Made by a program: the position numbers and the translations under genes. The notes under the pieces are model-generated. The model saw nothing but the letters and a program-made list of their open reading frames with translations, did not search any database and had not been told where the DNA came from. From contig OZ037852.1 of assembly GCA_964035575.1 (NCBI GenBank), positions 434,001 to 498,000 of the forward strand: 64,000 nt of DNA, read 5' to 3'. Source of the DNA: Rhynchopus sp. YZ270_cl-10. Taxonomy: Eukaryota > Euglenozoa > Diplonemea > Diplonemida > Diplonemidae. This document shows, piece by piece, positions 6,613-59,502 of the stretch (positions are counted from its first letter, which is position 1; each line of letters opens with the position of its first letter).

Positions 6613-9390
6613 CTAGTGCATATCTACAACCTCCGCCGTGTAGTCTTGGTTCATGACCATTGCCTTCAGTTTAGCGTACATCTGTTTGTGTGGTTGTTTA
6701 GATATTTTTTTTTGAAAATTTAAAGATAATTCCCATGTATTTTACTGAGGCAAAATACAGGCAAGAATTCAGGTAAAATCACTTTCGTCCTGAGTGTAAA
6801 AAAGGTTCGGCAGCCATACCGGGTCATCATCCGCAGGTATCTTCTCGAAGCTATCGGCAGCCTCAGGGTACTTGCCGTTCACCAATTCTGCAAAGGCCTC
6901 GTTCCACACTGTGAAGGGTTTGTTTTCCGCAGTCTCAAGCTGGTACATCCACTCCTCCTCAGCCACTTTGCATTCCTCGATGACCTCGAAGATCATGATG
7001 GCACCTCGTGCTGAGCGTTTCACAAAGGACAGCGCACCCACGCACTTCGTCGTAAGGTGTATCGCCGTCTCGCCCCTAGCAATGAACTGGTCAATGAGCC
7101 CACTGTAGCCCATCTTCCTGTTGTAACGCTCCATCGCAATCACCCACGACACCACAGAGGAGGTCACAGTGATCTTCTTCATCCCTGCACACCCCATGTG
7201 GCCCACACGTGCATCCCCTGTCGCACATGCATAGGATAACTCCATTTTGTCCTCCAGAGCAATACGGTCACAAGCCTCCCGAACAGCCTTCACACACCCA
7301 TACTTGTGGGCAGCGGTGGAACTGTACGCGTTGAAAGTCGCCAGGATTCTGTCCCCAGAGAACACGTCGCACACACCCTTCGTCAGCTGCACTGACTGCA
7401 TGATCAATGCGATTATACGGGTGTGCGTCTGCGTAACAGTGTGGTCCGACTTGGACGAACAGAACATATGCCAGTCCTTCACATTGAGATAAGCAACAGA
7501 CACGTTCTTACGGCGCAGACAAGGTTCCTGTCCCTTCAGCATAATAGCATGTATGCCGTTGCTTTCCCCTGACGTATCGCGGCCTTCTGTGTACTTGACG
7601 GAGGAGCGCACAGAAATGCTGCTGTCAAGTTGCTGGTGTGAGGTGGACTCAATGTCCGACGTCTCCTCATCGTCCTTCAGGAGCACTGTCTGTGGCATGT
7701 AGTTTCTGTACTCAATCAGGTTGGAGACCATCATCTTGAACGAGGCCTGCATGTTCGCCACTTCGGAAAGACGTGACTTGCTCTCCAAGTCCACACCCTC
7801 AAGGTTCATGACAGCCACACACGACATGTCGTGCTGAAGCGACAGCAACGGGGAGATGATCATGCGTGTCACGAACACCGACACCGCAAGCAGCACTGCC
7901 GCTGCAGACAACGTTGCTGCCAACATCGTCACAAGCGCCTCGTTCTGCTTGTCCTCTGAGTCCTGGCGTGACTCTTCGTTCTGTGCTTTGATGGATGATG
8001 TGGACACGTCGATTTTCGCCATCACAGCACTCCTCGGCACAAGCAGTGTCACGTACCACGTCAGCGTGACAGGGGACCCCTTCTCCAACAACTTCGTCAC
8101 AGTCCAGAACTCTGTCCTGGTTGCGTTCGTTGCGTTTGCTTCGGGAACGTACGTCCATGGGTGGAATGTATCTTTGGACAACTCCACAGTTTCGTCGTAA
8201 CCACCGTCCAGGGAAAACGCGTACCTCCCGTGCGAGGCAATTGCAGAAGGAATGCTCCCTCCTTGGATGTCGGAGTGGTTTGTGATGTTGATCAAACGCT
8301 GGTTCGGCAACGTTGAGTTCACAGGTGGTGGGTAGTACTGCATGTAGGTAGCACCCACCCATCCTGCGTTGAAGGCGATGAGCTCACCCACAGCGCCTGT
8401 TCTGTAGTTGTGTTGCACTGTGTAAATCAGCGAACCTTCAGGAAGGTCTTGTTCCACAAGCATGTCCGTCAACCCTTTACCACTGAAAGCTGTTGAAAGA
8501 TAGCCAACACGATGGTTTTGACCCGTATGCAGGTTCGGCATCTCAGAATGCACAGGTGAGTAGGAACACGACAACGATAGTTGATCGAAACTCGCTTTCA
8601 CGGGAGCGTACTCAAGAGTGCCTGCTCTGTACTGGATGTCTCCTGTCAGTAGTTCCGTCATCCTGTACTGCGCCCCAGAGTAAGCACGTGGAATCATGCA
8701 GTTTCCCAGCCAAATGTCATTCTCATAATCGCTGAAATAGTTGCATCCACGCTGTGTGTTCCACATGTTCCCGTCAGGGCCAGCTTCACCTATTCTGGAC
8801 ATCGGTCCGTGCTGAAACGTGTTTGTGTACATGTCACGTGACTCGAGTTGAAGTGCGATTGGTGTGTCATTTCTCTGAATGCCAGTCAAAGGTGTCGCTC
8901 TGAAATAAAGAATACTTCCACCCCATGGGTATGAACGAGCCAGGTCTATAGGGTGGGGGTATGCAGGCGAAAACGGAAGTGCTTCGTACGCAATGTTTGA
9001 AACCCCGTGGTGCACAGTGTCGTCGAACAAGGTTTTGAGCAACGGACGCAGCTGCTTGTCAACGAATGCTGGCGACGTGCTCACGTTCGGGTGGTGCATC
9101 TCGACATACCCCCCCCCAACACGGAGTGACATCTCGGGCACCTCAAAGTATTTGTCAATCGCCGACTCCACACCTTCCAGCACAGCATGAAGGAAGCGCC
9201 CAGACATGGCCTTGATGTCCAGCTCCCCACTGTTCAAACACTGCGACACACCTTCATCCCCATTGTCGCGTGCCTTGCGCAGCAGGTCGTTCCACGTCGT
9301 GATGGTGATGCTTCCGATCAACGTACCGGTGCAGATGATGAGGAGACACGACAACGCCAATGTCAGGGACTGGATACCCGCCCCAGGCAT
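6613..9390 (-). CDS. Receptor-like pseudo-cyclase, copy 1 (two exons)
   Basis: Exon 1 is 9390-6820, the intron 6819-6682 (138 bp, GTATGG...ACAG), and exon 2 6681-6613, giving about 879 residues. There is a membrane segment at about residues 7-30, a large extracytoplasmic sensor with Asn-X-Ser/Thr sites, a second membrane segment at about 484-508, a HAMP-like linker (ends MPQTVLL), and a class III cyclase-like domain at about 627-790. Retained cyclase traces are CDVFSGDR..TFNA and CATGDARVGHMG. The usual first metal Asp position reads YLNV, and the Asn/Arg pair after the TxTS strand is absent, so activity is unlikely. The C-terminal WNEAF..GKYPEA..F motif is typical of cyclase tails and continues into exon 2 (MYAKLKAM..VVDMH). 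The start MPGAG is chosen because upstream reading frames are not conserved between copies. This is the most diverged C-terminal half of the set, together with copy 4. Confidence 0.85.
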
Positions 9391-12600: not shown

Positions 12601-12713
12601 AAAAAGTTGCGTACCGTGCGCCTGCGGCGCAAGCATGTACCCCACCAACGTGGACCATCAACAGAATATTTTCAAAATCGGAAATCCTAGCGGAGAGCCT
12701 GATCTATAAAAAA
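9666..12713. other. Intergenic repeat-rich stretch, no gene
   Basis: Consists of A/T homopolymers, two GCCTGCGGCGCC...GCTCCGC hairpin modules (10200-10235, 10305-10350), and an AACGGTTCACTGG..ACATAGATAAAGAAAAC segment (11282-11350) repeated at 15105-15180. GTACCGTGCGCCTGCGGCGC occurs at about 12027 and 12610. No open frame shows coding character. Confidence 0.55.
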
Positions 12714-13215
12714 CAAGTAATTGCTATCGGAAAAAAAACCGGGTGTGCTGTGGAACTCCACTCTGAAAAAAATATAATCTACAACACGCCCAGCATTCTG
12801 CTCTTCTGCAGGTATGCTAAAACGCTCTTCGTACGCTGCTGAACCCACTGGGATGCCTGCATCTGAAACTTTTAAACAGTGGGGCTGTCCTCTTCGTCCA
12901 GCACCATCTGATCGATCGCGTTATTGGAGGTAGTCTCGGCAGGCTCGATAACCATTCGCTCGGGCGGCCTCGGCATGTTCCAGCTCGTAGTCGTCCACAG
13001 GCTCCCACGCATCGTCGTCGTCATCAGAGCAGTGCGGAAGGAACACATAATGCACAGACGACAACACGTCGTCGATCGCACCAGGCATCGTCACATCAGC
13101 ACCTCCAGAAAATCGCCAGGATGCTATGGTGGTTTCGAAAATCGCGCGGAGTTATCCACAGCACACCCCATTTTTTTTCTTAGCAATTAGTTGTTCTTGT
13201 TATTATTGTTTTCCC
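12714..13215 (-). repeat. Dispersed repeat with decayed acidic coding sequence, copy A
   Basis: Begins CAAGTAATTGCTATCGG on the plus strand. Related copies are 29197-29705, 34261-34725 and 40063-40450. The minus strand of this copy can be read as a short acidic peptide (SDDDDDAWEPVDDYELEHAE), and the 34.3-kb copy preserves the same pattern (VFLxHxSS..D..VDDxEVEHAD) despite many base changes, suggesting former coding. Frames break between copies. Function is not recognised. It is followed by the 248-bp satellite, as at 31.2 kb, and by related units at 40.5 kb. Confidence 0.6.
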
Positions 13216-13370
13216 CACCCTTCCTTCAACCCGATCAGTTCGTATTGTTTTCGCGAAAACATGAAATTACACATTTCAAGAGAACAAAAAATTAAAAAGG
13301 GTTCGCCCCCTCAATGGGACGCCGGAAACCATAATTCCCCAGTGTCAGCCGCATCATTTCAATGAAACCA

Positions 13371-14362
13371 AAAAGTGGCTTATTTGCATTTTTGGGCTCC
13401 GCCCGTGCAGCGGTGGGGTCATTTCGGAAAATTGGACAATTTTTTGACCACTTAAATTTTGAGAAATATGAGCCCGGTTCCTTATACGTGGGGCCCATTT
13501 TTGGCCAAAATTTTTCTCAAAATCGACGAAATTAAAATTAGACCCCTTACCCCCCCCCAGAATCATTTCAATACACTACCTGTATTGGTTGCTGACGCGT
13601 GTATACAGGAAGGTTGGGAAAAGTGGCTTATTTGCATTTTTGGGCTCCGCCCGTGCAGCGGTGGGGTCATTTCGGAAAATTGGACAATTTTTTGACCACT
13701 TAAATTTTGAGAAATATGAGCCCGGTTCCTTATACGTGGGGCCCATTTTTGGCCAAAATTTTTCTCAAAATCGACGAAATTAAAATTAGACCCCTTACCC
13801 CCCCCCAGAATCATTTCAATACACTACCTGTATTGGTTGCTGACGCGTGTATACAGGAAGGTTGGGAAAAGTGGCTTATTTGCATTTTTGGGCTCCGCCC
13901 GTGCAGCGGTGGGGTCATTTCGGAAAATTGGACAATTTTTTGACCACTTAAATTTTGAGAAATATGAGCCCGGTTCCTTATACGTGGGGCCCATTTTTGG
14001 CCAAAATTTTTCTCAAAATCGACGAAATTAAAATTAGACCCCTTACCCCCCCCCAGAATCATTTCAATACACTACCTGTATTGGTTGCTGACGCGTGTAT
14101 ACAGGAAGGTTGGGAAAAGTGGCTTATTTGCATTTTTGGGCTCCGCCCGTGCAGCGGTGGGGTCATTTCGGAAAATTGGACAATTTTTTGACCACTTAAA
14201 TTTTGAGAAATATGAGCCCGGTTCCTTATACGTGGGGCCCATTTTTGGCCAAAATTTTTCTCAAAATCGACGAAATTAAAATTAGACCCCTTACCCCCCC
14301 CCAGAATCATTTCAATACACTACCTGTATTGGTTGCTGACGCGTGTATACAGGAAGGTTGGG
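13371..14362. repeat. Four tandem 248-bp satellite units
   Basis: Units at 13371, 13619, 13867 and 14115 look essentially identical. Each ends in a palindrome-like segment (CACTACCTGTATTGG..GTATACAGGAAGGT). One further unit lies at 31191-31438, and diverged 253-262-bp relatives at 40470-40984 abut a tyrosine recombinase gene. The open frames inside are shared by repetition and have no independent support. Confidence 0.95.
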
Positions 14363-17115
14363 AAAAAAAAAAAAAAAAGTTTATAAGATGATCCTAAGCC
14401 TCTCGGCTTAGTCTGATTAGGTTACTTAATGTTTTGAACATTGGTTATTCATCAATCTTTTTTGTTGTATTTTTGGATCATTTTTGTTTTGTTTTCTCTC
14501 GTGCTTAGTCACCTTATCATGTTCGTTATCGCACAGCATCAGCTGCGCTGGCTTCTACAAGTTTGTTGTCAGGGATGATGTCATTTCCCCAGCCGGAGTT
14601 CGTAATTTTGGAAAAAAATGTGGCTTAAAAGGGTGTGCACGTCTCTACAGACGACATACACCAGCAGAAGATGACACTAGACTCTGATGCTGAAATTTCA
14701 TATGGCACAGTCCATAAACCCACCCCCCAAAAAGGTAACCCTTTGAATTTTTTTCACATTAGGACTTTTTGCTCGATTTTTGCTCCTTTGAACTCAGAAT
14801 AACGTTTCTGAGGTCACAGGAGCAAAAATCGAGCAAAAAGTCCGAGTAGAAGATAGATGGAGATGAGTATCATAACAATTCGCGAAGGGGGAGAAAAAAC
14901 AAGAATAGTGAAGTTATTGTATTATTAATGCAGGCACCTCCTACGAAGATATTCGTGGCCAATGGGAAGTTCCGTTCAACGGCAAGCCACAAGAGTAGAA
15001 CAACAACACAAACCCTTGAAAAGCAGACGCAGAGTCTCTCGGCAGACAAACATGACAACGCTAACCACGACTGCCACAGGGCAGAGCGGGGTCCCTAACG
15101 CCTAACGGTTCACTGGGGGGGGGGGGGGGGGGGGGCCCACATAGATAAAGAAAACAAAAACACAAAAGCACGAAAGGAAAACCAATAAAAAAGTAAAATA
15201 AGAAGACAAAAGAAAGCGCGTTCTATACAAGATACGTCCAAAAAGTAATAGGGGGGAAATACACACAAAAGAATGGTTGCCAAACCTAGTTCCCCAAAAA
15301 CCCCGGTTACAGGTGACCGCACCATGAGAACAAATTGCTTTTTGTGAGATGGCCGACACCTTACTTAGGTAAGTCGTCTTGAAGGCATACCGTAGAAGAA
15401 ATACTACAGTGTCAATAACTATCTTCGCCCACACAGGAAAAACGCGAAACGAAACAGGGGGAGAGTTTGTTAGCTGTAGGCTTCCACCTTTTTTTATCGT
15501 TTTGAAAACTGATGTGTTTACAAACAGAGCCAAATAGAAAAGGTAAGAAAGTGAAAGTCCTGAAGTACAAGAAAGTGATGTGTGAGAAGGGAGGAGCACA
15601 CATGAGGGTGAAAACAGTTCGAGCGACCGTAGCATTTCCCCTGTCAACTGCGTTTGACCTATAACAAAGTATTTGTCCTGATAGAAAAAAAAAAAAAAAA
15701 AAAGGGTTTTTTGAAGAAGCAAGAATAGAACCATTATCACTGGAACACCAGTAACACGGGTACGTTAAAAAAAAAAAAAAGTACCTTTTCCCCCAACAAA
15801 GTACCCTACTGTATTCAAAAAGTACTTTCTCCGAACCTTCACCACAATTATTTTTCGGGGGGGGGGGGGGAAACCCACTCAGAAAAATATATTTTGATAG
15901 GCCGCCGACCCCGCAATTAATGGGGGGGGGGGGAAAGAAAGTTCTAAATAAAGAATGAATGGCCAACGGCCACATGGGCACGCACACATGTCGTAAAAAA
16001 GAGGGACAGTTGAGGGGAAAAGAAGTTAAATAGGAGGGGGGAAAGTTGAGGGAGAGAAGGGCGACCTTCGAGGAGAGAGGCGAAAAAAGGGTGTGTTTTT
16101 TTTTGTATAGTTTTGTAATATGAACCTAGGAAGCACGGTGCATTAAGTTCACCAAAAGAGAGAGAGAGAGAGTAAGGAGAAATTTTAGTAATGAAGGAGG
16201 AAGGGGGGAAACCTGTTTTCCGGATGTCGGTAGGCTGTAACCTCGGGTGTAATTGGGCGTAATTCGGTAAAATTGGGAAATCGGGCAAAAATGCAGTTTT
16301 TTTGCCGTTTTTTTTTTGTACTTTTGACTTGCTTTTCGGTCGTCACATTCCCCAAATTTTCCCACTTATATGCTGTTTGCCTACAAATCAATATAAAATC
16401 AAAAACGGTGATGAAAAATATGCCTTGGTGAGTGGTCACAGATGCTGCACCTACGCGGTTCCAATGCGAGAATGAAGGTGTCCAGGTTACCAAACACCCC
16501 CCGCCATAGGGTGTTCCCATTTTTGCCAACTGGAGCTACCACGTCACACCCTCTAGTTTAGTCGCCCGTTTGACCTCAACTCCGAGTCTAGACCCCACTG
16601 TGTGGGCAAGCAAAACAGGCCCCCGGGAAAGCCTCCCTCAAAAACATCTGAGTTGTACTGGTGGTGTGATTGGATGTTATTGGGACGTAATAAGGGTAAA
16701 ATTGACCCCAGGTGGGTCCAGATGGGCTGTGTTGGGTCCGGGTGGGTAGATAAACATTACAAGAAAGGGAACAGAAAAAAGAAGAAACAGCAGACAGAGT
16801 CTGCTGGAGTTGCAATAATAAAACAGAACAAGATGACAAGATGATCAAGATGGGCACACTTGCAGTATGAGCTCTTGATTGAGAGTCATCAGAAGAAAGA
16901 AAAGCACAAAAAAAAAAAAAAAAACAAAGAGAAAAAATGACAACACGCCCGGACGGCGAGCACGGGACTAAAAAGAGGGGAGGGGGGAAAGAAGTTAAAA
17001 AGAATGCGCCTCCTCACCCGAATTATTCAATAAAACAGAGTGTCGGGGAAACGCGTCCCATCTATGAATCTCAAGGCAACAGAAGATCAAGAAAACACAG
17101 TTTCAAAATATTATA
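14363..17115. other. Intergenic, no gene recognised
   Basis: A hairpin motif (CTAAGCCTCTCGGCTTAG) lies at about 14384. A 26-bp-arm inverted repeat (GGACTTTTTGCTCG..) spans 14762-14841. G and A runs are frequent (15117-15135, 15858-15870). Long frames near 15102-15987 are rich in Phe, Ser and Pro from homopolymers and are judged non-coding. Confidence 0.55.
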
Positions 17116-19286: not shown

Positions 19287-21955
19287 TCAGTGCATGTCCA
19301 TAACAACGACGCTGTACTGTTCTGCATTGACCAGACGCTGCAGCCTGCTGTACATCTGTGGGGTGTCGTGTCTTGATACAAAACATAAATCACACATACC
19401 TTGTCGAGGTCGGAAGGGATCTTGGCGAACTTCTCCTTCGCATCTCGGTACTTGCCATCAATCAGAAGTGTCATCGTCTCGTTCCAGATGGCGAAGGGTA
19501 TGCCCGATGTGTTCTCAAGCTGGTACATCCACTCCTCCTCAGCCACTTTCAGATCACCCATGATCTCAAAGACCTGTATGTTCTTGGAACTGCGTTTCGT
19601 AAAGAGCAGCGCATCAACACACTTCACAGAAAAGTGGACAGCATTCTCCCCCTTCACAATGAAGCTGTCATAGAGCCCACTGCAGTCCATCTTCCTGTTG
19701 TAACGCTCCAGCGCAATCACCCACGACACCACAGAGGAGGTCACAGTGATCTTCTTCATCCCTGCACACCCCATGTGGCCCACACGTGCATCCCCTGTCG
19801 CACATGCAAAGGAGATCGCAATGTTCTCTTTCTCCATACACGAGCTCACATGTCTTGCACTATTCGCACAGCACTCTTTGTGTGAACCAGCAGCCTTGTA
19901 CGCGTTGAAGGTCACAAGCATCCTGTCCCCAGAGAACACGTCGCACACACCCTTCTGCAACTGTGCCGACTGCATCAACATTCCCACAACCTTGCTGTGC
20001 TGTTCGACAACAGTGTCATCGTCCTTCGAACCGCAGAACGCATGCCAGCCCTTCACATTGAAGTACGCAACAGACACGTGCTTGCGACGCAGGCCTTCTG
20101 CAACAGGCGCTTTGATATGTTTTGAACTCTCACTCAGAGACATACTGAGACGTGAGAGACGTGAGCGTGAGCGGTTCGGCGGTAGCTTTGCGCTCACCAT
20201 TGATGAGTGGGTCATGGTCACAACATCTTCGTCACCTTCACTCAGGAGCACTGTCTGCGGCATGTAGTTTCTGTACTCAATCAGGTTGGAGACCATCATC
20301 TTGAACGAGGCCTGCATGTTCGCCACTTCGGAAAGACGTGACTTGCTCTCCAAGTCCACACCCTCAAGGTTCATGACAGCCACACACGACATGTCGTGCT
20401 GAAGCGACAGCAACGGGGAGATGATCATGCGTGTCACGAACACCGACACCGCAAGCAGCACTGCCGCTGCAGACAACGTTGCTGCCAACATCGTCACAAG
20501 CGCCTCGTTCTGCTTGTCCTCTGAGTCCTGGCGTGACTCTTCGTTCTGTGCTTTGATGGATGATGTGGACACGTCGATTTTCGCCATCACAGCACTCCTC
20601 GGCACAAGCAGTGTCACGTACCACGTCAGCGTGACAGGGGACCCACGTGTATATTTCTTTGTCACAGTCCAGAACTCTATCCTGGTTGCGTTCGTTGCAT
20701 TTGCTTCGGGAACGTACGTCCATGGGTGGAATGTATCTTTGGACAGCTCCACAGTTTCATCGTAACCACTGTTCAGGGAAAACGCGTACCTCCCGTGCAA
20801 GGCAATTGCAGAAGGAATGCTCCCTCCTTGGATGTCGGAGTGGTTTGTGATGTTGATCAAACGCTGGTTCGGCAACGTTGAGTTGAGAGGTGGTGGGTAG
20901 TACTGCATGAAGGTAGCACCCACCCATCCTGCGTTGAAGGCGATGAGCTCACCCACAGCGCCTGTTCTGTAGTTGTGTTGCACTGTGTAAATCAGCGAAC
21001 CTTCAGGAAGGTCTTGTTCTACAAGCATCTCCGTCAACCCTTCGCCACTGAAAGCTGTTGAAAGATAGCCAACACGATGGTTTTGACCAGGGTACAGATC
21101 CAGCATCTCAGGATGCACAGGTGAGTAGGAACACGACAACACTAGTTGATCGAAAGTCGCTTTCACGGGAGGGTACTCAAGAGTGCCTGCCATGTACTTA
21201 ATGTCTCCTGTCAGCAGTTCCGTCATCCTGTAATCAGCCCCAGAGTAAGCACGTGGAATCATGCAGTTTCCCAGCCAAACGTCATTCTCGTAGTCGCTGA
21301 AATAGTTGCATCCACGCTGTGTGTTCCACATGTTCCCGTCAGGTCCAGCTTCACCTATTCTGGACATCGGTCCGTGCTGAAACGTGTTTGTGAACATGTC
21401 ACGTGACTCGAGTAGAAGTGCGATTGGTGTGTCATTTCTCTGAATGCCAGTCAAAGGTGTTGCTCTGAAATAAACAATACTTCCACCCCATGGGTATGAA
21501 CGAGCCAGGTCTAAAGGGTGGGGGTATGCAGGTGAAAACGGAAGTGCTTCGTACGCAATGTTTGAAACCCCGTGGTGCACAGTGTCGTCGAACAAGGTTT
21601 TGAGCAACGGACGCAGCTGCTTGTCAACGAATGCTGGCGACGTGCTCACGTTCGGGTGGTGCATCTCGACATATCCCCCCCCAACACGGAGTGACATCTC
21701 GGGCACCTCAAAGTATTTGTCAATCGCCGACTCCACACCTTCCAGCACAGCATGAAGGAAGCGCCCAGACATGGCCTTGATGTCCAGCTCCCCACTGTTC
21801 AAACACTGCGACACACCTTCATCCCCATTGTCGCGTGCCTTGCGCAGCAGGTCGTTCCACGTCGTGATGGTGATGCTTCCGATCAACGTACCGGTGCAGA
21901 TGATGAGGAGACACGACAACGCCAATGTCAGGGACTGGATACCCGCCCCAGGCAT
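19287..21955 (-). CDS. Receptor-like pseudo-cyclase, copy 2 (two exons)
   Basis: Exon 1 is 21955-19400 (852 codons), the intron 19399-19356 (44 bp, GTATGT...CACAG), and exon 2 19355-19287 (22 codons plus stop, ending VVVMDMH). It has the same layout as copy 1 and an intact frame. The linker before the cyclase domain is longer and Ser/Arg-rich (LPPNRSRSRLSRLSMSLSESSK). The cyclase-like domain has YFNV where the first metal Asp would sit and keeps SGDRMLVTFNA. Without removing the intron, translation would run on into an unrelated tail, and the spliced end matches copies 1 and 4. The frame is open for another 84 residues upstream of MPGAG, but this extension is broken at copy 1, so it is treated as non-coding. 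Confidence 0.85.
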
Positions 21956-29190: not shown

Positions 29191-29196
29191 GTCAAA

Positions 29197-40450: not shown

Positions 40451-40469
40451 CAAGAGAACAAATTAAAAA

Positions 40470-44389: not shown

Positions 44390-44487
44390 GGCCCAAAAAA
44401 AATAAAGGGTGCGGATTCCACAGCTGTGCTGTCTCAACGTCTGCGTATAAAGCAAATTTGACGCAGGCACGTACAAAAAGTGTGGTG

Positions 44488-47135
44488 TCAGTGCATGTCC
44501 ATAACAACGACGCTGTACTGTTCTGCATTGACCAGACGCTGCAGCCTGCTGTACATCTGTGGGGTGTCGTGTCTTGATACAAAACATAAACCACACATAC
44601 CTTGTCGAGGTCGGAAGGGATCTTGGCGAACGTCTCCTTCGCATCTGCGTACTTCCCATCAATCAGAAGTGTCATCGTCTCGTTCCAGATGGCGAAGGGT
44701 CTGCCTGATGTGTTCTCAAGCTGGTACATCCACTCCTCCTCAGCCACTTTCAGATCACCCATGATCTCAAAGACCTGTATGTTCTGGGAAGTTCGTTTCG
44801 TAAAGAGCAGCGCATCAACACACTTCACAGAAAAGTGGACAGCAATCTCCCCCTTCACAATGAAGCTGTCATAGAGCCCACTGTAGTCCATCTTCCTGTT
44901 GTAACGCTCCATCGCAATCACCCACGACACCACAGAGGAGGTCACAGTGATCTTCTTCATCCCTGCACACCCCATGTGGCCCACACGTGCATCCCCTGTC
45001 GCACACGCAAAGGAGATCGCAATGTTCTCTTTCTCCAGACACGAGCTCACATGTCTTGCACTCTTCGCACAGCACTCTTTGTGCGAACTAGCGATCTTGT
45101 ACGCGTTGAAGGTCACAAGCATTCTGTCCCCAGAGAACACGTCGCACACACCCTTCTGCAACTGTGCCGACTGCATAAGCATTCCCACAACCTTGCTGTG
45201 CTGTTCGACAACAGTCGCATCATCCTTCGAACCGCAGTACGCATGCCAGTCCTTCACATTGAAGTACGCAACAGACACGTGCTTGCGACGCAGGCCTTCC
45301 GCAACAGGCGCTTTGATACGTTGTGAATCATCACTCCTGGAGTGTGAGAGGTTTGGTAGCGCACTCACCATTGATTGGGATCGTGTTTCATCGTCATCTT
45401 GATTGCCTTCCTCATCATCCTTCAGGAGCACTGTCTGTGGCATGTAGTTTCTGTACTCAATCAGGTTGGAGACCATCATCTTGAACGAGGCCTGCATGTT
45501 CGCCACTTCGGAAAGACGTGACTTGCTCTCCAAGTCCACACCCTCAAGGTTCATGACAGCCACACACGACATGTCGTGCTGAAGCGACAGCAACGGGGAG
45601 ATGATCATGCGTGTCACGAACACCGACACCGCAAGCAGCACTGCCGCTGCAGACAACGTTGCTGCCAACATCGTCACAAGTGCCTCGTTCTGCTTGTCCT
45701 CTGAGTCCTGGCGTGACTCTTCGTTCTGTGCTTTGATGGATGATGTGGACACGTCGATTTTCGCCATCACAGCACTCCTCGGCACAAGCAGTGTCACGTA
45801 CCACGTCAGCGTGACAGGGGACCCCTTCTCCAACAACTTCGTCACAGTCCAGAACTCTGTTCTGGTTGCGTTCGTTGCGTTTGCTTCGGGAACGTACATC
45901 CACGGGTGGAATGTATCTTTGGACAGCTCCACAGTTTCATCGTAACCACCGTCCAGGGAAAACGCGTACCTCCCGTGCGAGGCAATTGCAGAAGGAATGC
46001 TCCCTCCTTGGATGTCGGAGTGGTTTGTGATGTTGATCAAACGCTGGTTCGGCAACGTTGAGTTCACAGGTGGTGGGTAGTACTGCATGTAGGTAGCACC
46101 CACCCATCCTGCGTTGAAGGCGATGAGCTCACCCACAGCGCCTGTTCTGTAGTTGTGTTGCACTGTGTAAATCAGCGAACCTTCAGGAAGGTCTTGTTCT
46201 ACAAGCATCTCCGTCAACCCTTTACCACTGAAACCTGTTGCAAGATAGCCAACACGATGGTTCTGACCAGGGTACAGATCCAGCATCTCAGGATGCACAG
46301 GTGAGTAGGAACACGACAACATAATTTGATCGAAAACCACTTTCACGGGAGTGTACTCAAGAGTGCCTGCCATGTACTGAATGTCTCCTGTCAGCAGTTC
46401 CGTCATCCTGTACGGTGCCCCAGAGTAAGCACGTGGAATCATGCAGTTTCCCAGCCAAACGTCATTCTCGTAGTCGCTGAAATAGTTGCATCCACGCTGT
46501 GTGTTCCACATGTTCCCGTCAGGGCCAGCTTCACCTACTCTGGCCAGCGGTCCGTGCTGAAACGTGTTTGTGAACATGTCACGTGTCTCGAGTAGAAGTG
46601 CGATTGGTGTGTCATTTTTCTTAATGCCAGTCGCCTGCGTTGAACTGAAATAAAGAATACTTCCACCCCATGGGTATGAACTAGCCAGGTCTATAGGGTG
46701 GGGGTATGCAGGCGAAAACGGAAGTGCTTCGTATACAATGTTAGTCACGCCGCGGTGCACAGTGTCGTCGAACAAGGTTTTGAGCAACGGACGCAGCTGC
46801 TTGTCAACGAATGCTGGCGACGTGCTCACGTTCGGGTGGTGCATCTCGACATATCCCCCCACAACACGGAGTGACATCTCGGGCACCTCAAAGTATTTGT
46901 CAATCGCCGACTCCACACCTTCCAGCACAGCATGAAGGAAGCGCCCAGACATGGCCTTGATGTCCAGCTCCCCACTGTTCAAACACTGCGACACACCTTC
47001 ATCCCCATTGTCGCGTGCCTTGTGCAGCAGGTCGTTCCACGTCGTGATGGTGATGCTTCCGATCAACGTACCGGTGCAGATGATGAGGAGACACGACAAC
47101 GCCAATGTCAGGGACTGGATACCCGCCCCAGGCAT
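44488..47135 (-). CDS. Receptor-like pseudo-cyclase, copy 5 (two exons)
   Basis: Exon 1 is 47135-44601 (845 codons), the intron 44600-44557 (44 bp), and exon 2 44556-44488 ending VVVMDMH. The frame is intact. The linker before the cyclase-like domain reads EGNQDDDETRSQS, a variant shared with copy 7. The sensor has its own combination of variable stretches (STQATGIKK, VVFDQIMLSC). YFNV again replaces the first metal-binding Asp. The 1.4-kb upstream region is shared with copy 6, so copies 5 and 6 arose as a tandem block of about 4.1 kb. Confidence 0.85.
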
Positions 47136-47160
47136 GATGATGTGGACTGTGTCAAAATAT

Positions 47161-48595
47161 CTGTGTGTGGTAAGGCGATCGGGAGCAGGATTTGAATGTG
47201 GCTTTCAATTTTGATAAATAAGAGCGAACACAAAAACCAGCGCGTATGGAAAAAAGGAGAGGTAAATTTACGTAAAATACTTTCTCTGAATGAAAATGGT
47301 GATTACGTTTGGATACGCGGATAAAAAAATCTGTTTGATAAAAGAAACGCAAACTTATTGTTTTATCTTGTTCAATGAGTGCGTATTGTCACTGTGCTAT
47401 AAGTGTATACTTGGCAAGGTGGAACGCTTCAATGACGCAATAATACATAAGTTTCGTATACTTTCAGTGAGCGTGTGGGCAGCTTCACTGCCTGCTTACA
47501 ATGTAACACCTGCAAAACTGGCTGGGGCCTGTATGAACTGGCTTTTCGGTTCAAAAAAGGACTGAAAGAGTGGTATTTTTGGGCGGTGTAGGTGGCGCAC
47601 AGCTCTATAAGAACGCGTTTCGATGAAACTCACCTAAGTGTTTTAGAATTTTCTTCGCCGCCCAAGCACTGATAAAACTAGTTTGATCATCCACATTGTC
47701 CTTGTACATTCACTTATGAAACACAAAGAAAAGAGCAGCATGAACAAAGCATTCTTAACAACAATGTGTGGCGGAGTCTTAGTATGACAGGTACATTTGA
47801 AATCACAAATTCCTCAATCACATGAGAGACAACAAGTAACCGCGATATGTCCATCACCACCAAATGATTCTAACAAGAAAACTACTAATCTCAACTCTTT
47901 CATTTCCTCTAGCAGATAGGCCCACAGACTGTACACCTTACGCATGGTGTGCACCTGACTAAATAAAACAAATAAACCTTGTCAGATAAATGTGTCTCGT
48001 TCACATCCATCTTTCCCACTATCGCTGGCGTAGGGCATATAGTGTGAAACCTGAACAGCTTTCCCTTCGCCGCAGAGACAGCTGTTCAGGATGACGTAAT
48101 CATTTCATTGTTTTACGGATCAAGGCACTGGCCTACTGCTGGAACGCCAATGAAACGAAACCCCTTCAGTTGAGATTGGAGGAGTGAGTTCTGGGAGATG
48201 CCGATGCTTATGCAGCACAGCTTGGGAATAGAAACGTACTCAAGTTACTTAAGAAACGAACAACGTAAGAAGTAAACGCGGTTTCCACCGTCGCAAAGGC
48301 TTATACAATTGAATGAACCACAAAGTGTAAACCTTGTGAAGAAAAGAATAAAAGGGCTGTGCAGTGTGGAGGACACTCAGGGAATCCTTGCACGCACTAA
48401 TGCCCTAAAAACTCCCTGTTCGGGTGTTATCAAACATGAGAACCAACTAGCAACAAGGGGCGCCTTTTGGCGGGCGTTGCTAAGGGTGTTTATGTTTAGG
48501 ATGTAATGTTTTCAACAATTTTGATGCGGGTACAGAAGTACTGTCTCAATGTCCGTGGATAAAGTAAACTTGAGGCACGGAGAAAAAGTGTGGTG
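47161..48595. repeat. Intergenic block shared between copies 5, 6 and 7
   Basis: Closely similar to 51264-52577 plus 56762-56860, with small indels. Indels change all reading frames, so it is judged non-coding. It contains the uninterrupted TTATGTTTAGGATGTAATG site (48490-48508) that is split by the 4.18-kb insertion in the other copy. Confidence 0.85.
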
Positions 48596-51238
48596 TCAGT
48601 GCATGTCCATAACAACGACGCTGTACTGTTCTGCATTGACCAGACGCTGCAGCCTGCTGTACATCTGTGGGGTGTCGTGTCTTGATACAAAACATAAACC
48701 ACACATACCTTGTCGAGGTCGGAAGGGATCTTGGCGAACGTCTCCTTCGCATCTGCGTACTTCCCATCAATCAGAAGTGTCATCGTCTCGTTCCAGATGG
48801 CGAAGGGTCTGCCTGATGTGTTCGCAAGCTGGTACATCCACTCCTCCTCAGCCACTTTCAGATCACCCATGATCTCAAAGACCTGTACGTTCTTGGAACT
48901 GCGTTTCGTAAAGAGCAGCGCATCAACACACTTCACAGAAAAGTGGACAGCAATCTCCCCCTTCACAATGAAGCTGTCATAGAGCCCACTGTAGTCCATC
49001 TTCCTGTTGTAACGCTCCATCGCAATCACCCACGACACCACAGAGGAGGTCACAGTGATCTTCTTCATCCCTGCACACCCCATGTGGCCCACACGTGCAT
49101 CCCCTGTCGCACACGCAAAGGAGATAGCAATGTTCTTTCTCCAGACACGAGCTCACATGTCTTGCACTATTCGCACAGCACTCTTTGTGTGAACTAGCGA
49201 TCTTGTACGCGTTGAAGGTCACAAGCATCCTGTCACCAGAGAACACGTCGCACACACCCTTCTGCAACTGTGCCGACTGCATAAGCATTCCCACAACCTT
49301 GCTGTGCTGTTCGACAACAGTGTCATCGTCCTTCGAACCGCAGTACGCATGCCAGTCCTTCACATTGAAGTACGCAACAGACACGTGCTTGCGACGCAGG
49401 CCTTCTGCAACAGGCGCTTTGATATGTTGTGAATCATCACTCTTGGAGTGTGAGAGGTTTGGTGAACTCACCATTGATTTGGATCGTGTACCATCGTCAT
49501 CTTCAGCGTCTTCCTCATCATCCTTCAGGAGCACTGTCTGTGGCATGTAGTTTCTGTACTCAATCAGGTTGGAGACCATCATCTTGAACGAGGCCTGCAT
49601 GTTCGCCACTTCGGAAAGACGTGACTTGCTCTCCAAGTCCACACCCTCAAGGTTCATGACAGCCACACACGACATGTCGTGCTGAAGCGACAGCAACGGG
49701 GAGATGATCATGCGTGTCACGAACACCGACACCGCAAGCAGCACTGCCGCTGCAGACAACGTTGCTGCCAACATCGTCACAAGCGCCTCGTTCTGCTTGT
49801 CCTCTGAGTCCTGGCGTGACTCTTCGTTCTGTGCTTTGATGGATGATGTGGACACGTCGATTTTCGCCATCACAGCACTCCTCGGCACAAGCAGTGTCAC
49901 GTACCACGTCAGCGTGACAGGGGACCCCTTCTCCAACAACTTCGTCACAGTCCAGAACTCTGTCCTGGTTGCGTTCGTTGCGTTTGCTTCGGGAACGTAC
50001 GTCCATGGGTGGAATGTATCTTTGGACAGCTCCACAGTTTCATCGTAACCACCGTCCAGGGAAAACGCGTACCTCCCGTGCGAGGCAATTGCAGAAGGAA
50101 TGCTCCCTCCTTGGATGTCGGAGTGGTTTGTGATGTTGATCAAACGCTGGTTCGGCAACGTTGAGTTGATAGGCGGTGGGTAGTACTGCATGTAGGTAGC
50201 ACCCACCCATCCTGCGTTGAAGGCGATGAGCTCACCCACAGCGCCTGTTCTGTAGTTGTGTTGCACTGTGTAAATCAGCGAACCTTCAGGAAGGTCTTGT
50301 TCTACAAGCATGTCCGTCAACCCTTTACCACTGAAAGCTGTTCCGAGATAGCCAACACGATGGTTCTGACCAGGGTACAGATCCAGCATCTCAGGATGCA
50401 CAGGTGAGTAGGAACACGACAGCGTGATTTCATTAAAGCTCGCAATCACGGGTGCGTACTCAAGAGTGCCTGCCCTGTACTGAATGTCTCCTGTCAGCAG
50501 TTCCGCCATCATGTATTGTGCCCCAGAGACAGCACGTGGAAGCAGGCAGTTTCCCAGCCAAACGTCATTCTCATAATCGCTGAAATAGTTGCATCCACGC
50601 TGTGTGTTCCACATGTTCCCGTCAGGGCCAGCTTCACCTATTCTGGACATCGGTCCGTGCTGAAACGTGTTTGTGTACATGTCACGTGACTCGAGTTGAA
50701 GTGCGATTGGTGTATCATTTTTCTTAATGCCAGTCGACTGCGTTGCACTGAAATAAAGAACACTTCCACCCCATGGGTATGAACGAGCCAGGTCTAAAGG
50801 GTGGGGGTATGCAGGTGAAAACGGAAGAGCCTCATACGCAATGTTTGAAACCCCGTGGTGCACAGTGTCGTCGAACAAGGTTTTGAGCAACGGACGCAGC
50901 TGCTTGTCAACGAATGCTGGCGACGTGCTCACGTTCGGGTGGTGCATCTCGACATATCCCCCCACAACACGGAGTGACATCTCGGGCACCTCAAAGTATT
51001 TGTCAATCGCCGACTCCACACCTTCCAGCACAGCATGAAGGAAGCGCCCAGACATGGCCTTGATGTCCAGCTCCCCACTGTTCAAACACTGCGACACACC
51101 TTCATCCCCATTGTCGCGTGCCTTGCGCAGCAGGTCGTTCCATGTCGTGATGGTGATGCTTCCGATCAACGTACCGGTGCAGATGATGAGGAGACACGAC
51201 AACGCCAATGTCAGGGACTGGATACCCGCCCCAGGCAT
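48596..51238 (-). pseudogene. Receptor-like pseudo-cyclase, copy 6 (frameshifted)
   Basis: Exon 1 is 51238-48709, the intron 48708-48665 (44 bp), and exon 2 48664-48596. A 2-bp deletion near 49135 (GAGAAAGAACATT in place of GAGAAAGAGAACATT) shifts the frame after EKE, and translation ends at LQQEDGLQWAL, losing the second half of the cyclase-like domain and tail. The sensor, membrane segments and HAMP-like linker are intact, so a 753-residue truncated receptor is possible. The same deletion is present in copy 7, so both descend from one broken copy or exchanged this segment. Splice sites of the distal intron remain intact. Confidence 0.85.
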
Positions 51239-51263
51239 GATGATGTGGACTGTGTCAAAATAT

Positions 51264-52577
51264 CTGTGTGTGGTAAGGCGATCGGGAGCATCATTTGAAT
51301 ACGGCTTTCAATTATGATAAAAAAGAGCGAACACAAAAACCAGCGCGTATGGAAAAAAGGAGAGGGAAAATACTTTCTCTGAAGGAAAGTGGTGCTTACG
51401 TTTGGGTACGGGCGGAGAATAAAATCTGTTTGATAAAAGAAACGCAAACTTATTGTTTTATCTTGTTCAATGAGTGCGTATTGTCACTGTGCCGCACCGT
51501 ATAAGTGGCAAGGTGATGTAACGCTTCAACGACGCTACATAAGTTTCGTATACTTTCAGTGAGCGTGTGGACAGCTTCACTGCCTGCTCACAATGTAACA
51601 CCTGCAAAACTGGCTGGGGCCTGTATGAACTGGATTTGCGGGTCAAAAAGGCCTGAAAAAGTGGTGTTTTTGGGAGGTGTGGGTGGCGCGCAGCTAGAAC
51701 GCGCTTCGATGAACTCACCTTAGCGTTTTAGAATTTTCTGCGCAGCCCAAGCAATGATTAAAGCTAGTTTGATCATCCACATTGTACATTCAATGATAAA
51801 ACACAAAGAAAACAGTATCATGAACAAAGCATTCTTAACAACAATGTGTGGCGGAGTCTTAGTATGACAGGTACATTTGAAATCACAAGTTGCTCAATCA
51901 CATGAGAGACAACAAGTAACCGCGATATGACCATCACCACTAATATTCTAACAAGAAAACTACTAATCTCAACTCTTTCATTTCCTCTAGCAGAAAGGCC
52001 CACAGACTGTACACCTTACGCATGGTGTGCACCTGACTAAATAAAACAAATAAACCTTGTCAGATAAATGTGCCTCGCGTTCACATCCATCTTTCCCACT
52101 ATCGCTGGCGTAGGGCATATAGTGTGAAACCTGAACAGCTTTCCCTTCGCCGCAGAGACAGCTGTTCAGGATGACGTAATCATTTCATTGTTTTACGGAT
52201 CAAGGCACTGGCCTACTGCTGGAACGCCAATGAAACGAAACCCCTTCAGTTGAGATTGGAGGAGTGAGTTCTGGGAGATGCCGATGCTTATGCAGCACAG
52301 CTTGGGAATAGAAACGTACTCAAGTTACTTAAGAAACGAACAACGTAAGAAGTAAACGCGGTTTCCACCAGTCGCAAAGACTGGTGGAATTTAATGAACC
52401 ACAATGTGTAAACCTTGTGAAGAATAGAATAAAAGGGCTGTGCAGTGTGGAGGACACTCAGGGAATCCTTGCACGCACTAATGCCCTAAAAACTCCCTGT
52501 TCGGGTGTTATCAAACATGAGAACCAACTAGCAACAAGGGGCGCCTTTTGGCGGGAGTTGCTAAGGGCGTTTATGTT
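51264..52577. repeat. Intergenic block, duplicate of 47161-48480
   Basis: The upstream flank of copy 6 runs through the same sequence as the flank of copy 5 to the TA at 52578, where the 4.18-kb element interrupts it. Confidence 0.85.
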
Positions 52578-53185
52578 TACACGGCGGGGCTGTGTCACAC
52601 CTGTGACACAGCTGAGGGTGTGTAACTTTCAATGATATGCGACATTTTGTGACAGTGTCACGGTGACACTGTCACAAGCTGTGTGACACTGTCACAAATC
52701 ATGTGACACTGTCACGGTGACACTGTCACAAGTCGTGTGACACTGTCTCCGTGACAGTGTCACAGTGGTGTGACACAGTCACAGTGGCTATTGCCTCCCA
52801 GGGAAAGGGACTCTCAAAAATTTTTTTTTGCCCAAAACAGGGCTAATTTCGACGATTTGAGGCCATTAAAAGCAAAAACTGGCACTTTTGAGCATCTGTG
52901 GGGGTCTAAAACGCGGTTTGCGCACCCGATTTTTCGTGGTTTTTGCCGTAGACAATTTTTTTCTTTAAAAAGTCAATCTGAGGTTTTCTTTGGATTTTTT
53001 GGGCCATTTTATGACCTACCACGCCCGATCTCGGGCGGGGAAAAATTTTTTTTTTTTTGGTCAAAAATCGCCCTTATCTAACCACTGTTTAGGTAGGTTC
53101 TGGGGGCTGGTGCTGACATACATGCATGTCCATTCCACAGGTTGCGGGGGTCCCAGATGTTGCCCGGGGTAAAGGGTCATATGAT

Positions 53186-53598
53186 CAGTACAGTACAGTA
53201 CAGTACAGTACAGTACAGTACAGTACAGTACAGTACAGTACAGTACAGTACAGTACAGTACAGTACAGTACAGTACAGTACAGTACAGTACAGTACAGTA
53301 CAGTACAGTACAGTACAGTACAGTACAGTACAGTACAGTACAGTACAGTACAGTACAGTACAGTACAGTACAGTACAGTACAGTACAGTACAGTACAGTA
53401 CAGTACAGTACAGTACAGTACAGTACAGTACAGTACAGTACAGTACAGTACAGTACAGTACAGTACAGTACAGTACAGTACAGTACAGTACAGTACAGTA
53501 CAGTACAGTACAGTACAGTACAGTACAGTACAGTACAGTACAGTACAGTACAGTACAGTACAGTACAGTACAGTACAGTACAGTACAGTACAGTACAG
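53186..53598. repeat. 5-bp microsatellite (CAGTA)n
   Basis: About 82 perfect units inside the 4.18-kb element. Open frames across it are artefacts. Confidence 0.98.
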
Positions 53599-55932: not shown

Positions 55933-56570
55933 TACCCAGTACCCAGTACCCAGTACCCAGTACCCAGTACCCAGTACCCAGTACCCAGTACCCAGTACCC
56001 AGTACCCAGTACCCAGTACCCAGTACCCAGTACCCAGTACCCAGTACCCAGTACCCAGTACCCAGTACCCAGTACCCAGTACCCAGTACCCAGTACCCAG
56101 TACCCAGTACCCAGTACCCAGTACCCAGTACCCAGTACCCAGTACCCAGTACCCAGTACCCAGTACCCAGTACCCAGTACCCAGTACCCAGTACCCAGTA
56201 CCCAGTACCCAGTACCCAGTACCCAGTACCCAGTACCCAGTACCCAGTACCCAGTACCCAGTACCCAGTACCCAGTACCCAGTACCCAGTACCCAGTACC
56301 CAGTACCCAGTACCCAGTACCCAGTACCCAGTACCCAGTACCCAGTACCCAGTACCCAGTACCCAGTACCCAGTACCCAGTACCCAGTACCCAGTACCCA
56401 GTACCCAGTACCCAGTACCCAGTACCCAGTACCCAGTACCCAGTACCCAGTACCCAGTACCCAGTACCCAGTACCCAGTACCCAGTACCCAGTACCCAGT
56501 ACCCAGTACCCAGTACCCAGTACCCAGTACCCAGTACCCAGTACCCAGTACCCAGTACCCAGTACCCAGT
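55933..56570. repeat. 7-bp microsatellite (ACCCAGT)n
   Basis: About 91 perfect units. It is the same unit as the array at 23423-23648, which is also adjacent to a CACGGCGGGG terminus. Confidence 0.98.
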
Positions 56571-56862
56571 GGGTATTCCTTAAGGTTGTGACAGTGTCAC
56601 ACAGGTATGTGACACTGTCACAAGTCGTGTGACACTGTCTCCGTGACACTGTCACACATTTTGTGACACTGTCTCCGTGACAGTGTCACAAAATGTGTGA
56701 CAGTGTCACATGTGACACTGTCTCCGTGACAGTGTCACATGTGACACAGCCCCGCCGTGTAGGATGTAATGTTTTCAACAATTTTGATGCGGGTACAGAA
56801 GTACTGTCTCAATGTCCGTGGATAAAGTAAATTTCAGAGAGGCACGGAGAAAAAGTGTGGTG

Positions 56863-59502
56863 TCAGTGCATGTCCATAACAACGACGCTGTACTGTTCTG
56901 CATTGACCAGACGCTGCAGCCTGCTGTACATCTGTGGGGTGTCGTGTCTTGATACAAAACATAAACTACACATACCTTGTCGAGGTCGGAAGGGATCTTG
57001 GCGAACGTCTCCTTCGCATCTGCGTACTTCCCATCAATCAGAAGTGTCATCGTCTCGTTCCAGATGGCGAAGGGTCTGCCTGATGTGTTCGCAAGCTGGT
57101 ACATCCACTCCTCCTCAGCCACTTGCTGTTCACCCATGATCTCAAAGACCTGTATGTTCTTGGAACTGCGTTTCGTAAAGAGCAGCGCATCAACACACTT
57201 CACAGAAAAGTGGACAGCAATCTCCCCCTTCACAATGAAGCTGTCATAGAGCCCACTGTAGTCCATCTTCCTGTTGTAACGCTCCATCGCAATCACCCAC
57301 GACACCACAGAGGAGGTCACAGTGATCTTCTTCATCCCTGCACACCCCATGTGGCCCACACGTGCATCCCCTGTCGCACACGCAAAGGAGATAGCAATGT
57401 TCTTTCTCCAGACACGAGCTCACATGTCTTGCACTATTCGCACAGCACTCTTTGTGTGAACTAGCGATCTTGTACGCGTTGAAGGTCACAAGCATCCTGT
57501 CACCAGAGAACACGTCGCACACACCCTTCTGCAACTGTGCCGACTGCATAAGCATTCCCACAACCTTGCTGTGCTGTTCGACAACAGTGTCATCGTCCTT
57601 CGAACCGCAGAACGCATGCCAGCCCTTCACATTGAAGTACGCAACAGACACGTGCTTGCGACGCAGGCCTTCTGCAACAGGCGCTTTGACACGTTGTGAA
57701 TCATCACTCTTGGAGTGTGAGAGGTTTGGTGGCGTCACCATTGATTGGGATCGTGTTTCATCGTCATCTTGGTTGCCTTCCTCGTCATCCTTCAGGAGCA
57801 CTGTCTGTGGCATGTAGTTTCTGTACTCAATCAGGTTGGAGACCATCATCTTGAACGAGGCCTGCATGTTCGCCACTTCGGAAAGACGTGACTTGCTCTC
57901 CAAGTCCACACCCTCAAGGTTCATGACAGCCACACACGACATGTCGTGCTGAAGCGACAGCAACGGGGAGATGATCATGCGTGTCACGAACACCGACACC
58001 GCAAGCAGCACTGCCGCTGCAGACAACGTTGCTGCCAACATCGTCACAAGCGCCTCGTTCTGCTTGTCCTCTGAGTCCTGGCGTGACTCTTCGTTCTGTG
58101 CTTTGATGGATGATGTGGACACGTCGATTTTCGCCATCACAGCACTCCTCGGCACAAGCAGTGTCACGTACCACGTCAGCGTGACAGGGGACCCCTTCTC
58201 CAACAACTTCGTCACAGTCCAGAACTCTGTCCTGGTTGCGTTCGTTGCATTTGCTTCGGGAACGTACGTCCATGGGTGGAATGTATCTTTGGACAGCTCC
58301 ACAGTTTCATCGTAACCACCGTCCAGGGAAAACGCGTACCTCCCATGCGAGGCAATTGCAGAAGGAATGCTCCCTCCTTGGATGTCGGAGTGGTTTGTGA
58401 TGTTGATCAAACGCTGGCTCGTCGTTGTAGTGTTGATAGGTGGTGGGAAGTACTTCGTGAAGGTAGCACCCACCCATCCTGCGTTGAAGGCGATGAGCTC
58501 ACCAAAGACGTCATCTTCATAGTTGTGCTGCACTGTGTAAATCAGCGAACCTTCGGGAAGGTCTTGTTCTACAAGCATGTCAGTCACGCCTTCGCCACTG
58601 AAAGCTGTTGCAATATAGCCAACACGATGGTTCTGATCAGGGTACAGATCCAGCATCTCAGGATGCACAGGTGAGTAGGAACACGACAGTCTACGTTCAT
58701 TGTAGCTCGCTTTCATGGGAGCATACTGAAGAGTGCCTGCCCTGTACTTAATGTCTCCTGTCAGTAGTTCCGTCATCCTGTAATTCCCAGAGTAAGAACG
58801 TGGAAGCAGGCAGTTTCCTATCCAAACGTCATTCTCATAATCGGCAACATAGTTGCAACCACGCTGAGTGTTCCAAATGTTCCCATCAGGGCCAGCTTCA
58901 CCCATTCTTACCATCGGACTCATCTGAAACGTGTTTGTGAACATGTCACGTGACTCGAGTACCATAGGGACTATTGTATTGTTTTTTGGAGCACCCCCCG
59001 TGGGTGTTGCTCTCAATAAAATAATACTTCCACCCCATGGGTATGAACGAGCCAGGTCTATAGGTTGGGGGTATGCAGGCGAAAACGGAAGTGCTTCATA
59101 TTGGAGATTTGCCACGCCGCGGTGCACAGTGTCGTCGAACAAGGTTTTGAGCAACGGACGCAGCTGCTTGTCAACGAATGCTGGCGACGTGCTCACGTTC
59201 GGGTGGTGCATCTCGACATATCCCCCCACAACACGGAGTGACATCTCGGGCACCTCAAAGTATTTGTCTATCGCCGACTCCACACCTTCCAGCACAGCAT
59301 GAAGGAAGCGCCCAGACATGGCCTTGATGTCCAGCTCCCCACTGTTCAAACACTGCGACACACCTTCATCCCCATTGTCGCGTGCCTTGCGCAGCAGGTC
59401 GTTCCATGTCGTGATGGTGATGCTTCCGATCAACGTACCGGTGCAGATGATGAGGAGACACGACAACGCCAATGTCAGGGACTGGATACCCGCCCCAGGC
59501 AT
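56863..59502 (-). pseudogene. Receptor-like pseudo-cyclase, copy 7 (frameshifted)
   Basis: Exon 1 is 59502-56976, the intron 56975-56932 (44 bp), and exon 2 56931-56863. It carries the same 2-bp deletion as copy 6 (near 57402) and the same truncated ending. Its sensor is the second most distinct after copy 4 (VANLQYEALPFSPAYPQP, NNTIVPMVLESRDM, FTKYFPPPINTTTTSQ), while the first 70 residues and the second-membrane block are shared. The linker EGNQDDDETRSQS matches copy 5. The broken cyclase half matches copy 6, so copy 7 is a mosaic. The 5' flank is short and differs from the other copies. Confidence 0.85.

Follow-up and report, generated by a model that had tools for sequence, protein, structure and literature searches.

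The DNA analysed here (the window) is a stretch of 64,000 nucleotides from the diplonemid Rhynchopus sp. YZ270_cl-10, bases 434001-498000 of contig C20; the genome searched comprises 152.4 Mb in 126 contigs. It carries an array of seven related receptor genes, all on the minus strand. The encoded protein is modelled as a first transmembrane segment (TM1), a double-CACHE (dCACHE) sensor, a second transmembrane segment (TM2), a HAMP-like region and a domain with the class III cyclase fold. Located by their shared start, copies 1 to 7 begin with ATG at 9390, 21955, 27793, 38487, 47135, 51238 and 59502, respectively.

Four of the copies have an intact frame in two predicted exons: copy 1 (6613-9390; 879 amino acids (aa) after predicted splicing of an intron at 6682-6819), copy 2 (19287-21955; 874 aa, intron 19356-19399), copy 3 (25140-27793; 869 aa, intron 25209-25252) and copy 5 (44488-47135; 867 aa, intron 44557-44600). 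The other three are frameshifted. A preliminary description of this DNA had noticed the broken cyclase half of copies 6 (48596-51238) and 7 (56863-59502), which are open for 753 and 752 codons and have one 2-nt deletion in common. Copy 4 (35754-38487) must be added to these, as a different 2-nt deletion of its own in the cyclase-like half leaves it open for 782 codons.

A predicted GT-AG intron of 44-138 nt, followed by a short exon ending DMH-stop, was found in 7/7 copies, and many relatives have resembling ends. A putative intron of this kind agrees with the canonical ones in four Diplonemidae, for which the accessible part of PMC12621601 gives medians of 41-107 nt. Long open reading frames (ORFs) of 931 and 1085 aa were rejected as real proteins, their tails being artefacts of reading through the predicted 3' intron. 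An origin of the copies from spliced mRNA was also excluded, because all seven retain this intron. ACAG occurs 17-25 nt upstream of the ATG in 7/7 copies and may be a trans-splice acceptor.

A recently homogenised frame around diverged sensors

In copy 3, constant block 1 (27584-27793, minus strand) comprises codons 1-70 and, by the hydropathy of copy 1, the first membrane segment. The variable sensor (26702-27583, minus strand; residues 71-364) makes up most of the dCACHE-like domain in models of copy 1 and of the relative P0036, and constant block 2 (26081-26512, minus strand; alignment codons 442-585) holds the sensor end, TM2 and the HAMP-like region. In the seven-copy alignment, 3/70 codon columns varied in the first block and 7/144 in the second (432 bp), compared with 240/291 gap-free columns in the sensor (codons 71-378) and 39/39 in the linker (586-654). 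Mean pairwise identity was 0.993 directly after the ATG, lower in the sensor, 0.998 in the TM2 region and lower again in the linker. These counts agree with what had first been reported, near-identity of the two blocks down to silent sites and patchwise differences in sensor and linker.

Silent divergence fell into the same blocks. For the six pairs with copy 4, the pooled proportion of synonymous differences (pS) was 0.010 in codons 1-70, 0.755-0.788 in the three parts of 71-378, 0.158 in 379-441, 0.019 in 442-585, 0.795 in 586-654 and 0.358 in 655-723. In the 15 pairs that do not involve copy 4, the corresponding values were 0.017, 0.093-0.148, 0.055, 0.022, 0.440 and 0.194. Uniform divergence along the gene, which had been named as the outcome that would speak against the mosaic, is ruled out by the sharp blocks of pS.

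Copy 4 has 0 private codons in both constant blocks, 226 in codons 71-378 and 42 in 586-654. With its six partners pooled, same-amino-acid codons differed at 3/401 (0.7%) and 3/781 (0.4%) in the constant blocks, and at 443/794 (55.8%) in the sensor and 47/70 in the linker. Copy 1 joins a standard-type sensor (14 private codons in 71-378) to a private linker and cyclase-like half (40 private codons in 586-654, 32 in 655-723), and copy 7 joins private sensor patches (58 private codons in alignment codons 71-378) to a standard linker and cyclase half. Copies 4, 1 and 7 are three different patchworks around one frame. Furthermore, the linker EGNQDDDETRSQS is reused in copies 5 and 7, as the preliminary description had it.

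The constant blocks might be kept identical, with no conversion at all, by constraint at the nucleotide level, through an RNA element or an antisense gene. An antisense ORF of 120 aa does run across the constant TM2 block on the plus strand (7838-8200, and at the equivalent place in every other copy), and is probably a by-product of the sequence identity. The silent-site test used parts of two genes that belong to a second receptor clade and lie on contig C3 of this genome. Between copy 3 and one of these, L035, same-amino-acid codons differed at 18/36 (codons 1-70), 10/20 (376-435) and 25/55 (436-568), or 45-50%, whereas copies 3 and 4 differed at 1/67, 2/50 and 0/123 in the same segments. 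In the sensor, the values were 47/84 for copy 3 with L035 and 77/145 for copy 3 with copy 4. There, copy 4 and the second clade are about equally distant from copy 3, each close to saturation, while the frame of copy 4 is fresh. The silent sites of the constant blocks are free to vary, and the blocks have therefore been homogenised recently rather than held by constraint. The pattern was weaker between the two C3 genes, a single pair, which differed from each other at 2/67 (1-70), 36/238 (sensor), 0/45 (376-435) and 5/113 (436-568). On one second-clade gene, nucleotide-level constraint is largely refuted; the sharp boundaries and reshuffled variants also speak against it, and we give it next to no weight.

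Recombination tests pointed to exchange among the copies. A Sawyer-type runs test gave a global p < 0.05 in 15/21 copy pairs. The pairwise homoplasy index (PHI), computed with copy 8 (described below) added and copy 4 left out, was significant in the sensor (p 0.001), where incompatibility between sites was 0.43 at distances up to 15 bp and climbed to ~0.6 past 40 bp, the pattern expected of short tracts. Painting showed that the nearest copy switches repeatedly along each gene. Silent divergence in sharp blocks and the reuse of variants among copies are both features of a gene-conversion mosaic, and on this sequence evidence the sensor variants are recombined among copies. Together, the alignments show recent homogenisation of TM1 and the TM2/HAMP-like block among copies that have strongly diverged, recombined sensors, linkers and cyclase-like halves. 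The preliminary description had gone further, to an ongoing conversion that diversifies the sensor on a fixed frame. Runs, PHI and painting bear out the recombination mosaic, with its fixed frame and variable sensor; as to timing, what is shown is recent homogenisation, and the sensor ratio of nonsynonymous to synonymous differences (pN/pS) in the pairs without copy 4 was 0.57 (bootstrap 0.44-0.75; codons 161-210: 1.09, interval 0.64-2.18).

All copies are homologous from ~40 nt ahead of the ATG to shortly past the stop. Some match further out: copy 5 lies with its flanks in a tandem-duplicated unit (44420-48498, minus strand; 4088 bp, 94.9% identical to 48532-52579, with copy 6), copies 1 and 2 share ~390 bp of upstream sequence, and copies 2 and 3 share ~320 bp of downstream sequence. 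The flanks are otherwise unique, and conversion is therefore favoured over repeated crossing over; unequal exchange would be a second process beside it. Downstream of copy 5, at least the stretch 43909-44208 (minus strand; repeat family D17) is a duplicated 3'-end fragment of a receptor gene, with a D17 match of 558 nt to the same stretch of copy 5 and the same open frame.

The seven copies first described are those of the window, and the family continues outside it. In the parts of C20 examined (181001-420000 and 424001-508000, with 8 of 34 proteins as queries), copies 8 and 9 lie at ~184 and ~216 kb, open through exon 1 and mutually identical over 2.8 kb. They are carried by an 8.6-kb segmental duplication, 99.95% identical, at C20:183452-192043 and 214983-223575 (L009, L010, L012, L015). 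Copy 10, at 223.6 kb, is truncated and internally deleted, and its break coincides with the edge of one 8.6-kb block. It was rejected as the donor of the private sensor patches of copy 7, being closer there to copies 1, 2 and 8. A divergent ORF just outside the window (L014:6920-7861, minus strand) weakly resembles the receptors in their HAMP and cyclase-like part (24%) and has no Pfam cyclase match. These alignments show that the copies arose by tandem and segmental duplication.

Near-identical blocks, such as the 8.6-kb blocks of copies 8 and 9, could mislead assembly, and the mosaic would then consist of merged or chimeric repeat copies. However, most window copies sit in unrelated flanks. 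The window proteins recur on a contig of 1,549,909 bases (against 1,704,034) and P0015 on one of 1,020,051 (against 2,269,412); those contigs appear to belong to another assembly in which the same genes are present, and both assemblies may share reads. We regard an artefact of this kind as very improbable.

Several repeats lie between the receptor genes. An ORF at 40981-42012 (plus strand) is tyrosine-recombinase-like (PF00589, E 7e-6, just under cut-off), and with the related repeats at 12708-14366, 29194-31443, 34255-34766 and 40057-40988 it looks like a recombinase-bearing mobile element family. One of these repeats contains a perfect tandem array of 248 bp x 4 (13371-14366). A perfect inverted repeat (22397-22623 / 22739-22965; 227-nt arms, 115 nt apart) stands directly upstream of copy 2, and a 1.2-kb inverted repeat, 85% identical (28020-29190 / 32358-33516), between copies 3 and 4. 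Short units of 5-8 nt form tandem arrays, 99-100% matching (for example TACCCAG x 91 and CAGTA x 83), between receptor genes or beside the array at 55933-56570, 23423-23649, 53186-53598, 38807-39184, 31591-31658 and 3267-3368. Arrays of the palindromic motif GTGACACTGTCAC occur at both ends of the copy 6-7 interval (52663-52787 and 56583-56746). Beta-tubulin is encoded at 62166-63494. Comparison with viral contigs, Rfam and a tRNA scan gave nothing informative.

Predicted architecture and known counterparts

The hydropathy of copy 1 revealed two hydrophobic stretches, within residues 1-33 and 483-519, and models of copy 1 and P0036 have a double-CACHE fold between the two transmembrane segments. 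No Venus-flytrap structure was among the listed rows of structure searches with these two models. The Pfam dCache_1 cut-off was not reached (P0007, E 0.0051, 16.8 bits against a cut-off of 45). A HAMP match after TM2 had E <= 0.1 in 16/30 relatives (best 0.0082), the scored matches being below cut-off and model confidence low there. Pfam on five window receptor ORFs and a single-sequence PDB search gave nothing useful, and NCBIfam gave only sub-threshold stretches for two receptors.

The last domain has the cyclase homology domain fold, with a profile match to Cya2 (E 6.4e-6). Catalytic residues were compared in two overlapping sets of 30 and 55 relatives. The 30-protein set (A2) excludes P0034 and the frameshifted P0005 and does not contain P0001, P0003 or P0004; P0034 is not in the 55-protein set either, and P0031 (820 aa) falls under its length limit. 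In 30/30 and 55/55 relatives, the metal-site Asp that serves as first metal ligand is Asn, and the substrate Lys and Asp and the transition-state Asn and Arg are replaced. With these positions in their usual catalytic roles, neither half-site of a class III dimer would be complete. The second metal Asp, the preceding Gly and a nearby Glu-Arg pair are invariant in 30/30, as they might be if the domain worked as an enzyme within a heterodimer or turned over a different substrate. Such activity is unlikely, given that no member of either set retains the first metal ligand or the substrate and transition-state residues. Judged by its residues, the cytosolic domain is a conserved pseudocyclase, a class III fold without the catalytic residue set; of the cyclase-like domain in the preliminary description the fold stands, and the catalytic residues are absent. 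Among the relatives examined for these residues, P0034 is the sole exception, with an intact cyclase domain on the same kind of sensor/HAMP frame, so the frame is compatible with cyclase output.

The bacterial dCACHE chemoreceptors PctD, TlpQ, PscC and TlpC have, by the models, the same double-CACHE fold (7-14% identity in the rows listed). In bacteria this sensor is placed between two transmembrane segments before a HAMP domain, and the output is a methyl-accepting coil or a kinase, not a cyclase-fold domain. The bacterial class III cyclases Cya2, CyaC and CyaB have the same cyclase homology domain fold, with the catalytic residues lost in the receptor family.

In eukaryotes, the accessible text of PMC6027212 describes trypanosomatid receptor cyclases with one transmembrane helix, mostly Venus-flytrap ectodomains and a catalytic cyclase, and that of PMC3605285 describes trypanosome cyclases as a large family in which ESAG4 keeps its eight catalytic residues. 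To the extent of these texts, ESAG4/GRESAG4 are alike in being Euglenozoan and an expanded surface family with a variable ectodomain and a conserved cytosolic class III fold (PMC6027212, PMC3605285), whereas the receptors here have two transmembrane segments, a dCACHE-like sensor, a HAMP-like block and a pseudocyclase. The likeness to trypanosomatid receptor cyclases drawn earlier holds in outline and ends at transmembrane number and catalytic residues: the receptors here have neither a single helix nor, in the two sets (P0034 being outside both), a catalytically competent class III domain.

The closest published parallel found for duplication, pseudogenes and conversion is the TMACs of Trichomonas vaginalis, a membrane cyclase family with massive duplication, ~46% pseudogenes and some evidence of gene conversion, clear in rare cases, according to the available text of PMC2914791. 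TMACs themselves have a series of N-terminal transmembrane helices before the cyclase domain, and their stops and frameshifts are nearly all single-copy, whereas copies 6 and 7 here have one in common. That text gives no block-wise constant/variable layout, the comparison being one of description, not sequence. Our literature search, mostly of open-access papers and of listed entries only, returned no description of such a receptor family, and the words cyclase and receptor are absent from the main text of the diplonemid papers PMC10161547 and PMC7052976.

The wider family and its reading

A genome search, in which 52 of 821 first-look candidates were scored, placed members on 18 contigs, with 9/52 on C20. 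A protein search with P0034 gave 505 matches; among the best 120 listed, at least 25 pseudocyclase receptors (>=820 aa) were on a contig of 1,681,463 bases, taken as one contig. P0015 is identical to the C3 gene L035 over 604 residues and so comes from this genome or a near-identical one. Transcript relatives in EukProt were Rhum_ (P0032) for the receptor and, from the P0034 search, Hpha_ and Sspe_ (P0085, P0104), prefixes that we take to mean Rhynchopus humris, Hemistasia phaeocysticola and Sulcionema specki. The first and last of these species are named as diplonemids in the accessible part of PMC12621601.

The constant/variable layout recurs in the second clade. Over 55 proteins, mean identity was high in residues 1-90 (0.89-0.95), TM2 (0.85) and the HAMP-like part (0.97-0.98), and lower in residues 121-270 (0.42-0.57), residues 271-390 (0.57-0.70) and the linker (0.44). 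In 47/1485 pairs, the sensor was <55% identical yet the TM2/HAMP block >98%; for P0036 and P0045, identity is 100% across the N-terminus and the TM2/HAMP block, 95% across the cyclase half and 54% across the sensor. Sensor and frame distances correlate (Spearman 0.43-0.54), and the modules are therefore not fully independent. On sensor data, the trees of different modules conflicted by 1451-1619 log units, compared with 59-88 in the control of odd and even columns of one module; on cyclase data, the corresponding figures were 366-424 and 105-202. The first approximately unbiased (AU) tests carried a warning of too few replicates, and the odd/even control used 10,000. AU rejected even the tree from the other half of the same module, and the Shimodaira-Hasegawa test did so for the cyclase half but not for the sensor; we therefore rely on the sizes of the likelihood gaps.

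Candidate true cyclases were also found. The large PF00211 cyclases P0076-P0078 and P0080-P0082 are 62-71% identical to P0034 over 39-46% of the query, and most join other ectodomains (PA, laminin-G-like, solute-binding) to a Pfam cyclase domain. Many further PF00211 proteins, mostly 600-950 aa, were among the matches listed (P0086-P0132). The numbered proteins are candidate true-cyclase partners of the receptors.

The reading that we favour, and think probable, is that the locus belongs to a large family of two-pass dCACHE pseudocyclase receptors, with a recently homogenised frame and diverged, recombined modules exchanged mostly by conversion, which signal through a true cyclase. From a short N-terminus, each chain would run through TM1, the external dCACHE sensor and TM2 to a HAMP-like relay, and a low-complexity linker would join this relay to the cytosolic pseudocyclase. 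Exchange would be mostly non-reciprocal, in keeping with the mostly unique flanks. The frame may be retained because each chain has to pair with another and transmit a common conformational signal, and the varied dCACHE domains could read different small molecules. The pseudocyclase would then act by pairing with or regulating an intact cyclase, not by making cyclic nucleotide.

A number of results weigh against this reading. Three of the seven window copies (4, 6 and 7) are frameshifted. The dCACHE call rests on models with a mean predicted local distance difference test score of 69.6 and 76.2, and Pfam dCACHE matches are weak, with E <= 0.1 in 1/30 relatives. For the second clade, silent sites were compared in a single gene pair and gave a milder contrast, and the sensor pN/pS above demonstrates no positive selection in the pairs without copy 4. 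The runs test, whose null ignores rate differences along the gene, was not significant in 6/21 pairs (1-4, 2-3, 2-5, 2-6, 3-6, 5-6), nor was PHI in the linker and cyclase half (p 0.15, 0.27). In simulations without recombination, on a tree built from possibly recombined data, the observed share of incompatible pairs was reached in 23/300 runs, and four-gamete counts were dropped as stand-alone proof. The observed number of informative sites was reached in 0/300. The PHI-like difference was -0.121, compared with a simulated mean of -0.002 (sd 0.051) and a more extreme simulated minimum of -0.171.

Ordinary concerted evolution with birth and death, in which conversion homogenises a constrained frame while the sensor drifts and copies decay, would leave a mosaic with no adaptive role. 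The sensor pN/pS of 0.57, the broken window copies with the truncated copy nearby, and the recent segmental duplicates all suit it. Strongly diverged sensor lineages on a fresh frame, and the recurrence of the layout in the 55 second-clade proteins, speak against it. In addition, 49/52 scored matches are stop-free from residue <=6 to >=854, the other three being copies 4, 6 and 7; this is a weak argument, as these copies are also listed as stop-free, the match ending before the break. We hold this explanation to be quite possible, at somewhat under an even chance.

Beyond the favoured reading, a genome-wide combinatorial chemosensory repertoire can be imagined. The TM2/HAMP block would serve as a recombination hinge for continual swapping of dCACHE sensors and outputs (pseudocyclase or true cyclase), broken copies as sensor donors, and pseudocyclase receptors would tune many true cyclases. 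We consider this rather doubtful; if true, it would be the chemosensory counterpart of antigen-gene mosaics. A homogenised frame with unequally diverged sensors lets one ask how a eukaryote diversifies its environmental receptors by recombination, in a setting apparently outside antigen variation, and also raises the question of what role a conserved pseudocyclase plays.

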